A stretch of DNA of 64,000 nucleotides from Algoriphagus machipongonensis. Its GTDB lineage: Bacteria; Bacteroidota; Bacteroidia; Cytophagales; Cyclobacteriaceae. The position numbers and the translations under genes are program-made. The notes under the pieces are model-generated. The model saw only the letters and a list, made by a program, of their open reading frames with translations. It ran no database searches and was not told the origin of the DNA. The first letter of the stretch is position 1. Each line of letters starts with the position of its first letter. The stretch is from NCBI RefSeq assembly GCF_000166275.1, contig NZ_CM001023.1, forward strand, positions 4,219,001-4,283,000, written 5' to 3'. Positions 9,870 through 24,035 of the stretch are shown here, piece after piece.

Positions 9870-10862
9870 ATGCGTTACTTTCTCCTTGGTTTAGGAATCT
9901 TAGTTCTATTATGTAGCCAAACTGCTTTGGCACAGGACAGGCAGGTTATTCCTGATACGGTCCTAATCAATGGGGACACCCTTTTAATGCTGGGAGATTC
10001 ATTGCTTATCGAAGAACCAGAAAAGGAAATCTTCTGGGAAACCGGCGGGAATTACAATTTGAATATTCAACAGGTTACTTTGAGTAATTGGGCAGCAGGT
10101 GGATCCAGTACCTTCGCCCTCAACTCAGGCATCTCCTTGTTTGCAAATTATAAGAAGGAAAAGAAAGTCTGGGACACACAGCTTACCATCAACTTAGGGA
10201 TGAACAGGCAAGGCGACCGGGATTTCAAGACCCGGAAGAGTAATGATAACTTCATCTTTGTGAGTAATTATGGCCGGGAGCTATCCGAGAAATTCTATCT
10301 CTCTACCCAAATCGATGCCCGAACCCAGCTTCTGGCAGGTTACAAATATTCGAGGCCTTCAGGAAGTGAAAGTGAGGTACGAACAAAAATTTCCGACTTG
10401 CTTTCTCCAGGCTATTTACAGTCTTCCACGGGTCTTAACTATAGAAAGACCTACGAAAACAAGAGTAAGATTTCCGTGATTCTATCACCCTTTACCGGGA
10501 GATTTACCATCGTTTTAGATGATTCCTTAAGTCGGGCCGGAGCGTTTGGTGTGACTCCGGGAGAAAATGTAAGAGCGGAAGCAGGGATGTCATTTGCTAC
10601 CTCGGTAACTGATATCAAATTAATGGAAAACATCACCTGGAAAGCAGACCTCAACCTCTTCTCCAATTATGAGACCTTTGGAAATATGGTGGTCAACTTT
10701 AACTCCATCATCCGAATGAAAGTAAATAAATACATTTCCACGAGGATGGAGACTCGATTGATTTACGATGAAAAGGTTTTGATTAAACAAGATGATGGAA
10801 GCTCCAAACAGGCTGTCCAGCTCCAAAACCTCATTAACTTTGGGATCAGTCTGGACTTTTAA
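9870..10862 (+). CDS. DUF3078 outer-membrane-type protein
   Basis: The 330-residue protein has a signal peptide (residues 1-21, ending ALAQ). The mature part contains the family hallmark NWAAGGSSTFALNSG and alternating beta strands ending in an aromatic residue (FGISLDF), which suggests an outer-membrane beta-barrel. DUF3078 is found almost only in Bacteroidota and has no assigned reaction. The location behind a LysM transglycosylase suggests an envelope role. Its stop codon overlaps the convergent end of dnaX: the bases 10859-10862 (TTAA) serve both stops. Confidence 0.88.
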   Translation: MRYFLLGLGILVLLCSQTALAQDRQVIPDTVLINGDTLLMLGDSLLIEEPEKEIFWETGGNYNLNIQQVTLSNWAAGGSSTFALNSGISLFANYKKEKKVWDTQLTINLGMNRQGDRDFKTRKSNDNFIFVSNYGRELSEKFYLSTQIDARTQLLAGYKYSRPSGSESEVRTKISDLLSPGYLQSSTGLNYRKTYENKSKISVILSPFTGRFTIVLDDSLSRAGAFGVTPGENVRAEAGMSFATSVTDIKLMENITWKADLNLFSNYETFGNMVVNFNSIIRMKVNKYISTRMETRLIYDEKVLIKQDDGSSKQAVQLQNLINFGISLDF

Positions 10863-11461
10863 AAATCAGTTTCTAAGCCAAATTTCTTCTGAAACTCAGC
10901 CAAAGCCGGGTGCTTTTCTTTGAGAAATCGGAGCTTATCCGTGCTGGTGTATAGTTTGTTGGAATGGGGTTCTACCTCTTCTTTAGTGACCAGTTTTATG
11001 GCCAATTTTCCCGCACCGGTAAGATCCCGAATCAAGGACAGGAGTTCCGGCTTCATCTTTTGAGCAATCTCCTCCTGTACATGCCCCATGACTTCCAGAC
11101 ATATTTCATGGCCTTCCATTCTGGAGGGTTGATTAAGGATTGCCAATTCCAGCACTTTCCCTTTACCTTTGAAATGAGCGATTACTTCAGGCATCACCTC
11201 TTCCAGCTTTTCCTGGGTTAGAACAATTCCATTTTGCGGAACAACTACAGAAGCTTCTGCTTTCTTTTTCTCTTGAAGAGAAGCCTCCTCTTTAGCCTTT
11301 TGGGCCATCAACTTTTTAGTATGCCCAAGACTGGTAGGAATGGACATGGTTCGCTGAACAGGCGTAGAATGACTATTTGGGGAACTAGGAAGGGGTTTGG
11401 AATCAGCTTCGGAAGTACTAGTTACCGCTGGCTTATTCAGGCTTTTTTTTTTGCTTCCTCA
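10859..11461 (-). CDS. dnaX: dnaX tau-specific C-terminal region, read in the -1 frame
   Basis: This frame is open from the A10 run at 11443-11452 to the stop at 10859 (about 200 codons). It has an ATG only at 11347, but reading backwards the frame is continuous with no stop into the slippery run, giving a Ser/Pro/Thr-rich linker and then a folded domain of about 130 residues. The domain ends in a segment (KEKHPALAEFQKKFGL) that resembles the C terminus of Bacteroidota DnaX. Fused by a -1 shift to the upstream ATPase, it would yield a tau subunit of about 574 residues. Independent translation from 11347 is the less likely alternative. Confidence 0.75.
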
Positions 11462-12582
11462 GCAGCCAAATTCGCCAACTTGAATGCTTGAGGTAGTTTT
11501 GACATTTTCATCAAAGCCAGCTCCACATGTAAACGTTGGTTTTTAGCTGTTTTATAATGAATATCACATTGGTTGGCAATATTCAAGGCAGATAATAAGA
11601 AGGAAGTACTTGCTGCTTCAGTTTGCTGCAAATATCTCTGTTTGGCATTTTCAGATACCTGAATCAACTCTACTGTTGCAGGATCTTTCGCAACCAATAA
11701 ATCTCTGAAATGCTCCGATAAGCCTACTATGAAATTATGCCCATCAAATCCTTTTTTAAGAATTTCATCAAAGATGAGCAGCACTTTTGATAGGTCTTCT
11801 TCAATCAATGCATCTACCACCTTGAAATAATAATCATAATCCAAGATGTGCAGGTTGTCTATAGTCTCATGATAAGTCACCTTTTTCCCTGCGGAATAGG
11901 TAACAATCAAATCGAAGATTGACAAGGCATCCCGAAGGGCGCCATCTGCTTTGGTAGCAATTAATCGTAGTGCTTCCTCTTCAAAATCAACAGATTCCTT
12001 CTCAGCGATATATTTCAGATGATTGGAAATATGATCAATTTGAATTCGGTTGAAATCAAAAATCTGACAACGGGAAAGGATCGTGGGTATGATCTTATGC
12101 TTCTCTGTAGTCGCTAGAATAAAGATCGCATATTTTGGAGGTTCCTCTAATGTTTTCAAAAAAGCATTGAATGCCTGATTGGAAAGCATGTGCACCTCAT
12201 CAATGATATATACTTTGTATTGTCCTTTTTGAGGAGCATACCTGACCTGATCTACCAGGTTCCTGATATCATCTACCGAGTTATTGGAAGCCGCATCCAG
12301 TTCGTAGATGTTAAACGAACTGTTATTTTTAAAAGAAACGCAGGATTCACATTCACCGCAGGCCTCCTGATCATCTTGACGATTTTCACAGTTGATGGTC
12401 TTGGCAAGGATTCGGGCACAGGTAGTTTTACCCACCCCACGTGGGCCACAAAAAAGAAAAGCCTGTGCTAAGTGATTATTTTTGATCGCATTTTTGAGAG
12501 TGGTTGTGATATGCTCTTGGCCTACAACACTCTTAAAATCTGCGGGTCTGTATTTTCTTGCCGAAACGACGAAGTTTTCCAT
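11437..12582 (-). CDS. dnaX: DNA polymerase III gamma/tau clamp-loader ATPase (0-frame, gamma-like product)
   Basis: The protein loads the sliding clamp onto DNA as part of the replicase. Residues 46-54 form the Walker A motif GPRGVGKTT; Cys65, Cys75, Cys78 and Cys81 form the zinc module; VYIIDEVHML is Walker B; and the sensor segment ATTEKHKIIPTILSRCQ follows. The 0-frame ends right after the A10 run with Ala and TGA, giving 381 residues, that is, the three conserved clamp-loader domains without the tau C terminus. A GTG one codon upstream (12585) is also possible, but the ATG at 12582 is preferred. The tmRNA gene is divergent upstream. Confidence 0.93.
   Translation of the reverse strand: MENFVVSARKYRPADFKSVVGQEHITTTLKNAIKNNHLAQAFLFCGPRGVGKTTCARILAKTINCENRQDDQEACGECESCVSFKNNSSFNIYELDAASNNSVDDIRNLVDQVRYAPQKGQYKVYIIDEVHMLSNQAFNAFLKTLEEPPKYAIFILATTEKHKIIPTILSRCQIFDFNRIQIDHISNHLKYIAEKESVDFEEEALRLIATKADGALRDALSIFDLIVTYSAGKKVTYHETIDNLHILDYDYYFKVVDALIEEDLSKVLLIFDEILKKGFDGHNFIVGLSEHFRDLLVAKDPATVELIQVSENAKQRYLQQTEAASTSFLLSALNIANQCDIHYKTAKNQRLHVELALMKMSKLPQAFKLANLAAEEAKKKA
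11443..11452 (-). promoter_or_regulatory. dnaX: Ten-A slippery run in dnaX (programmed frameshift or transcriptional slippage site)
   Basis: On the coding strand the sequence reads GAA GCA AAA AAA AAA GCC TGA, so the 0-frame stops at once. A -1 ribosomal shift, or insertion of one extra A by RNA polymerase, opens the tau frame. Slippery A runs at this point in dnaX are established in Escherichia coli (ribosomal -1 shift) and Thermus thermophilus (transcriptional slippage on A9). A sequencing miscount of the homopolymer would look the same. Confidence 0.7.
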
Positions 12583-12741
12583 CACCGCAAGATATAAAAA
12601 ACTCCATATTCAGGAAGCCCAAATCGCTTCAATCTCTGATAAAAACTGATAAAATATTGATAACCAATCCAAGAAATTTAAATTTTTATTCAGGTGATGT
12701 GAATATCAAAAAACAAATACCGCTTGGAACCAAAAATCCAT

Positions 12742-23308: not shown

Positions 23309-23340
23309 CCCTTCAGGCAATCCTGAAGGGCTTTTTTTTT
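23309..23340. terminator. Terminator after the RND efflux operon
   Basis: CCCTTCAGG (23309-23317) pairs with CCTGAAGGG (23322-23330) across a 4-base loop and is followed by ten T. The convergent ABC transporter ATPase gene ends immediately beyond, at 23340. Confidence 0.92.
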
Positions 23341-24035
23341 TAACCTTTAAAGTAACTATCCAATTCCTGCATCATCGCAGATTTGTCTCTCAAGTCATTG
23401 ATGATTTTACCTTTTTCTAACAAGACGATTCGATCACAAATCTCAGTTACATGATTCAAATCATGACTGGAAATCAAAAAGGTGACATTGGACTTTTCTT
23501 TTTCTTCCAAAATCAATTTTTTCAGTCGAATCTGAGAGCTTGGATCCAAGTTTTCAAAGGGTTCATCTAAAAACACCACTTCTGGATTTCCCATCAATGC
23601 TGCTGCAATTCCCACTTTTTTCAAATTACCTTTAGATAGGTCTCTGATGTATTTTTTCTTTCCTAAAATCTCCTCATTGAATAAGTCTGTAAACTTATCC
23701 AAGTGATTTTGAAGATCTGCCTCAGATAAGCCATAAACTTTCATCAAAGTCTTGAAATATTCATCGGGAGTTAGATAAGCCAAAAGCATATGCTCATCTA
23801 AAAAAGCTCCCGTGCTCTTCTTCCAATCCTCACTCTTACTTACATCTTGCTCATTGATAAATACGCTACCCTCTGTGGCTCTTACTAAATCGAGCATCAC
23901 TCTAAATAATGTCGTCTTTCCCGCACCGTTATTTCCTACCAAACCAAAACACTCTGAGTTGGGTATTTCTAATTGAGGTACATCAAGGACAACAGCTTCT
24001 TTATATTGTTTTTTAAGGTTACTTACTTGAATCAT
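23340..24035 (-). CDS. ABC transporter ATP-binding protein
   Basis: The 231-residue ATPase has Walker A GNNGAGKT (residues 34-41), a signature loop LSKGN in place of LSGGQ, Walker B VVFLDEP and the H-loop in LISSHDLNH. It lacks membrane segments and pairs with the permease encoded just upstream: the ATG overlaps the permease stop by four bases (ATGA, 24032-24035). The transported substrate is unknown; family members of this pair are often listed as drug or lipid exporters without evidence. Confidence 0.93.
   Translation of the reverse strand: MIQVSNLKKQYKEAVVLDVPQLEIPNSECFGLVGNNGAGKTTLFRVMLDLVRATEGSVFINEQDVSKSEDWKKSTGAFLDEHMLLAYLTPDEYFKTLMKVYGLSEADLQNHLDKFTDLFNEEILGKKKYIRDLSKGNLKKVGIAAALMGNPEVVFLDEPFENLDPSSQIRLKKLILEEKEKSNVTFLISSHDLNHVTEICDRIVLLEKGKIINDLRDKSAMMQELDSYFKG

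Follow-up and report, generated by a model that had tools for sequence, protein, structure and literature searches.

Results

The window, a 64-kb stretch of the 4.79-Mb single-contig genome of Algoriphagus machipongonensis, carries dnaX on its minus strand (Table 1). The gamma reading frame opens at an ATG; a GTG at 12585 is also a possible start. Its product holds the three clamp-loader domains that an earlier sequence-only reading had recognised, with Pfam assigning DNA_pol3_delta2 to residues 21-180, DNAX_ATPase_lid to 185-231 and DNA_pol3_gamma3 to 248-363, and a score of 441.9 bits against TIGR02397 dnaX_nterm (cut-off 250) identifying it as a DnaX N terminus. It also matches the E. coli gamma/tau chains in the PDB (E 3.6e-71). 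Across the junction the 0 frame reads, on the minus strand, GAG GAA GCA AAA AAA AAA GCC TGA, or EEAKKKA and a stop, which agrees with the earlier description of KKKA followed by a stop right after the ten A.

Table 1 Features of dnaX in the window.
Feature	Position	Strand	Remark
Gamma reading frame of dnaX	11437..12582	minus	ATG start; 381 aa + stop
Putative slippery run, exactly ten A (T10 on the plus strand)	11443..11452	minus	genus survey, 68/68 loci
TGA ending gamma in the 0 frame, second codon behind A10	11437..11439	minus	
TAA in the third (+1) frame	11433..11435	minus	
TGA, last -1-frame stop upstream of the run	11459..11461	minus	
Tau C-terminal part, -1 frame, 194 codons + stop	10859..11443	minus	stop codon 10859-10861

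The -1 frame is open from 11458, through the run and down to 10862, close to the 190 or so codons first estimated. Because the last -1 stop and the gamma stop flank the junction, the frame can change only within 19 nt (11440-11458), and the run takes up ten of these. The resemblance of this -1-frame piece to the DnaX tau C terminus is confirmed by its match to the C-terminal end of PRK14971, an NCBIfam gamma/tau model (445-613 of 614, E 5e-12) that is also the best-fitting model for gamma; the tau pieces of relatives match it in 53 of 53 cases. Since it is only part of the protein, the window's piece alone falls below the PRK14971 whole-protein cut-off, as expected. None of the solved tau C-terminal domain structures matched it by sequence. 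The predicted core of the domain (10862-11443) resembles DnaA domain I and the N-terminal domains of DciA, and there is a weak sequence link to the N-terminal region of PolC.

The whole genome contains nine A/T runs of at least 10 (seven of exactly 10 and two of 11 or more), and, judged by the reading frames around each, the run in dnaX is the only one inside a protein-coding gene, the other eight being intergenic or terminators. Among 72 genomes searched for the genus survey, 68 loci cover the junction; the count leaves out G046, where the match spans residues 1-226 only, and G047, G061 and G066, with no dnaX-level match. All 68 loci have A10 (64) or A11 (4) and tau in -1, and in each the second codon after the run is a stop. 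As the sole coding run among the nine, found in the same place in every genus locus, the dnaX run is not a product of chance. Aligning the orthologous position in related genomes, as the earlier reading had suggested, thus recovered the run and the split frame throughout. The only other T10 of the window (23332-23341) follows an intergenic inverted repeat in terminator-like fashion, with an outer-membrane efflux-like gene on one side and, on the other, the end of an opposite-strand ABC-type ATPase gene (names from a reading of the translations).

Conservation at the junction is seen at the nucleotide level. All 68 genus loci use only AAA for the lysines of the run, while upstream lysines of the same genes are divided between 1059 AAA and 736 AAG (1795 in total). 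The codon before the run encodes any of six amino acids (A, S, T, P, V or I), with its third base always A in the 66 loci of the same phase; the other two, L033 and L037, place their ten A in another codon phase. Because the surroundings vary while the run lysines stay AAA, the run itself, rather than the encoded peptide, seems from these alignments to be under selection.

We extended the comparison to 271 distinct loci of the phylum, drawn from genus, family, named and phylum sets. The family set (90 loci, covering 75 of 76 genera together with the window's own) was hand-picked among the matches listed, and the named set contributed 80 loci, 53 of them new to the survey. The phylum set comprises 60 of 136 matching genomes, 30 of which are all those of the class outside the family; the 30 from other classes were chosen partly for a short open frame or for membership of family f15, which biases the share of split genes in other classes upward. 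An iterated profile located the tau domain in 265 of 271 loci, and the remaining six (L068, L069, L098, L243, L288, L305) were placed by open length. In single-frame genes the longest A run in the 450 nt that begin at about codon 335 was taken, so an occasional chance run is possible (e.g. A7 in L261).

Of the 271 loci, 266 carry at least seven A at the boundary of domain III and 254 carry 9-12; the five left out of run counts are L228 and L243, where the site has no A run, and L289-L291, with none. The 266 runs comprise A10 in 218, A9 in 17, A11 in 17, A12 in 2 and A7 in 12, and no A8. Homopolymers are a usual site of errors, and a single genome could not exclude gene decay or a homopolymer assembly error leaving one product only. 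This explanation is contradicted by the genus survey, in which conservation of both split and run rules out an assembly error, by the recurrence of 9-12 A across the phylum and by a tau domain that is still recognisable in nearly every locus; we give it next to no weight.

The frame in which tau is templated relative to gamma (its resting frame) is far less constant than the run, being -1 in 179 of the 266 loci, 0 in 84 and +1 in three (L084, L240 and L273). Both principal classes are dominated by A10 (Table 2). Algoriphagus, Belliella, Echinicola and Cyclobacterium have a split dnaX with A10, whereas Dyadobacter, Mucilaginibacter and Spirosoma retain 9 or 10 A in a single-frame gene. All five loci of genus g82, one of which has homologues named Flavobacterium, are likewise split with A10. 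The frame also varies within genera: g112 (18 loci, 21 genomes) includes nine loci with A10 and tau in 0, eight with A10 and tau in -1 and one with A9 and tau in -1, and the 30 loci of g83 have tau in 0 in 27, in -1 in two and in +1 in one. On a FastTree phylogeny (269 rows, supports not used), the minimum is 26 changes of resting frame, a figure that single-tip assembly errors would inflate, against five changes in whether a run of 9 or more A is there. In g27, two genomes share the same context but differ by one A, L336 with A10 and tau in -1 and L084 with A9 and tau in +1, which reverses the shift needed and is either a real change or an assembly error; given the A10 of its genus mate, L084, from a single-contig genome, is possibly an error.

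Table 2 Run lengths by resting frame of tau.
Resting frame	Loci	A7	A9	A10	A11	A12
-1	179	1	7	163	6	2
0	84	11	9	54	10	

The sequence-only reading had named relatives that lack the homopolymer and read dnaX in a single unbroken frame as the pattern contrary to recoding. Single-frame relatives do exist, yet 73 of the 84 keep 9-11 A and the other 11 have A7. Relatives without the run are few: L289-L291, which lie outside the class, and, in further families, 10 of the 18 loci that were informative; the other eight have 9 or 10 A at codons 367-397, and all 18 are single-frame. The 19 new loci added from little-sampled families are single-frame wherever complete. Outside the class, the run is not universal.

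Databases carry the window's tau piece (10859-11347) as a separate protein, with Algoriphagus entries of 127 to 178 aa named 'hypothetical protein' or 'gamma/tau', and the Flavobacterium piece likewise has an entry of its own. Such entries begin at an ATG (11345-11347 in the window), as they would if the tau C-terminal part were a protein separate from gamma, initiated behind the run at a start codon of its own. Counting ATG starts only, however, the distance from the run to the first tau-frame ATG varies from 17 to 200 codons among the 68 genus loci, with no fixed place. In all 182 split loci, moreover, no stop interrupts the -1 frame across the run, the shortest overlap being 16 nt, and 84 relatives encode both parts in one continuous frame. 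We regard two separate proteins as very improbable.

Both non-tau frames stop close behind the window's run (Table 1), and this arrangement is general. Split genes have a third-frame stop within 9 codons in a fraction of 0.96, compared with 0.55 at control positions of the same genes (Wilcoxon p 1.5e-13 over 86 genus groups, in which coded and named genera were kept apart, so that some genera are counted twice). In single-frame genes (42 groups), a stop within 5 codons occurs in the -1 frame in 0.95 (control 0.33) and in the +1 frame in 0.61 (control 0.29).

Folding of the 60 nt behind the run is not consistent, with a mean z of -0.34 in the 89 of 266 loci folded against -0.15 at a control place; by class, single-frame loci average -0.73 (28) and -1 loci -0.04 (60). 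Simple folding found no hairpin above chance behind the window's run, z lying between -0.4 and 0.4 over four spans. The heptamer A_AAA_AAG stands in frame in 36 of 266 loci and is not present in frame in the window, where the run reads GCA AAA AAA AAA GCC. A loose Shine-Dalgarno-like word occurs at -20 to -3 in 62 of 266 loci, compared with 0 to 4 in four windows further upstream, and a stricter set at -22 to -5 in 15 of 254, compared with 0 to 3. The window itself has GAGGA 3 nt before the run, closer than the E. coli Shine-Dalgarno word, which lies about 10 nt upstream of its slip site.

A few lineages have a different layout at the site. In ten Pontibacter loci (L219-L223, L226, L227, L229, L238, L250) dnaX is a single frame with A7, and the -1 frame closes one codon further on. 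By a reading of the sequences, the 22 nt upstream hold a strict Shine-Dalgarno-like word in six of these loci and in seven of the 12 A7 loci overall, and predicted folding behind A7 ranges from -17.6 to -26.8 kcal/mol, with z of only -1.0 to -2.1 against shuffles in the three tested. In sequence, this layout looks much like the ribosomal shift of E. coli, in a phylum whose ribosomes reportedly skip Shine-Dalgarno pairing. The two Cytophagales loci without an A run, L228 and L243, have G_GGA_AAG directly before TAG at about codon 379-382, which we take to be a -1 heptamer pattern, and in L228 the tau domain lies in the -1 frame; here a ribosomal heptamer may have taken the place of the run. L169 has a split dnaX with only A7, reading A_AAA_AAG and then TAG at once at codon 363. 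The mechanism seems to have been swapped in other lineages, and the layouts of Pontibacter and of L228 and L243 suggest that what is kept is the having of two products.

Discussion

Were RNA polymerase to slip, one would expect a run of about nine or more followed by stops in each of the other frames, with no hairpin required and little constraint on the resting frame. A ribosome slipping by -1 would call for a heptamer and a single relevant stop, often together with stimulators. The earlier reading had offered both mechanisms, and recoding of either kind is supported, with slippage the better fit to the sequences: at least nine A are kept, both other frames are stopped, no hairpin rises above chance and the resting frame rotates. 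We consider it probable that dnaX is a two-product gene in which RNA polymerase slips on A10, giving gamma and tau. Slippage on the run would produce mixed transcripts, of which those with 10 A, or a number differing by a multiple of three, would encode gamma, while those shifted by the equivalent of one extra A would continue into the tau C-terminal domain to give a tau of about 574 aa (380 + 194). Transcripts in the third frame would also end at the run, because a stop follows there. The proposal that gamma is the resting product and tau needs the shift is likewise favoured, as the architecture holds across the genus. Directly observed are the architecture, the nucleotide-level conservation of the run, a stop in each of the two remaining frames and relatives whose resting frames interchange; that the polymerase rather than the ribosome is the slipping agent, that both products are made, and their ratio, are inferred.

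The principal competitor is a ribosome that shifts by -1 on the run lysine codons in a good part of its passages and so enters tau, with the roles of gamma and tau reversed relative to E. coli. All 179 split loci of the main type need a -1 shift, the run always offers A_AAA_AAA, and the E. coli-like layout of Pontibacter and the loci with A_AAA_AAG in frame add to its case; a review describes the reversed dnaX type in ribosomal frameshifting terms, and interchange between 0 and -1 would be expected at an efficiency of about 50% (PMC5009743). Tau rests in +1 in so few loci that most of the interchange is between 0 and -1, a pattern that efficient ribosomal -1 shifting also permits; for slippage to account for it, additions of A would have to be commoner than losses. 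Transcripts with extra bases are mentioned for Thermus in the same review. Also counting against slippage are the -1 stop of single-frame genes, which is nearer than the +1 stop, the enrichment of Shine-Dalgarno-like words near the run and the slight folding lean of single-frame loci.

A ribosomal shift, however, leaves unexplained why 9-12 A are kept in 254 of 266 loci when seven would suffice, and why third-frame stops are enriched when a -1 shift never enters that frame. The three loci with tau in +1 and the ordinary folding behind the window's run also speak against it. Ribosomes of Bacteroidia are reported not to recognise Shine-Dalgarno sequences (PMC9976891), so that one of the stimulators of the dnaX shift in E. 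coli would be lacking, and low prfB frameshifting with rare Shine-Dalgarno use is reported for F. johnsoniae (PMC12421855). We therefore hold a ribosomal mechanism to be unlikely at the window, though deserving of serious thought.

If RNA polymerase slips on the run, the tau frame is supplied in any case, and the resting frame would be near neutral. Whether dnaX is frame-agnostic in this sense in much of class Bacteroidia and Chlorobium-like relatives, with about ten A and two stops selected and the resting frame of tau flipping repeatedly, seems to us an evenly balanced question. Were it so, part of an essential gene would have lost its reading frame as a conserved property. Across a large part of the phylum, a central gene of replication appears to rely on routine RNA polymerase error. 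In practice, tau comes to be annotated as a separate or 'hypothetical' protein, and a working dnaX may pass for broken. The relatives also provide natural paired genes, with the same run and tau in 0 or -1 even within a genus, on which slippage and ribosomal shift can be distinguished and the needed gamma:tau ratio measured.

A dnaX of two open reading frames with recoded tau was described as a new structural type by Antonov et al. in 2013 (PMC3711429), in 17 genes from 12 genera, all -1 as reported, with 10 A in nine, and transcriptional realignment was proposed. The window corresponds to this type: its gamma frame ends at the poly-A, the adjacent tau frame lies in -1, the run has 10 A and tau requires recoding. 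That much is already known; the new part is the conserved run with a rotating resting frame of tau. No publication on the phylum-wide pattern was found in a search of open-access papers, a collection that misses most subscription journals. Unlike the 2013 set, the present survey includes single-frame relatives that keep the run, which, we infer, would escape a method seeking frame transitions.

The dnaX of Thermus thermophilus, which slips on nine A (PMC1088944, PMC3711429), shares with the window a run of at least nine A, close stops in the other frames and two products, predicted ones in the window. The templated frame is reversed, since the window templates gamma whereas Thermus templates tau and needs the slip for gamma, so the window's dnaX may function as in Thermus although its layout differs; the single-frame relatives in our survey do have the Thermus layout. 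In E. coli, dnaX makes a -1 ribosomal frameshift at A_AAA_AAG with a Shine-Dalgarno word and a hairpin (PMC3711429, PMC5009743). The window resembles it in making one gene serve gamma and, by prediction, tau through a -1 change of frame, and differs in its A10 without a terminal AAG codon, in folding no stronger than chance and in the reversal of the two products. According to the review, this reversed type of dnaX is much less widespread among bacteria than that of E. coli (PMC5009743).
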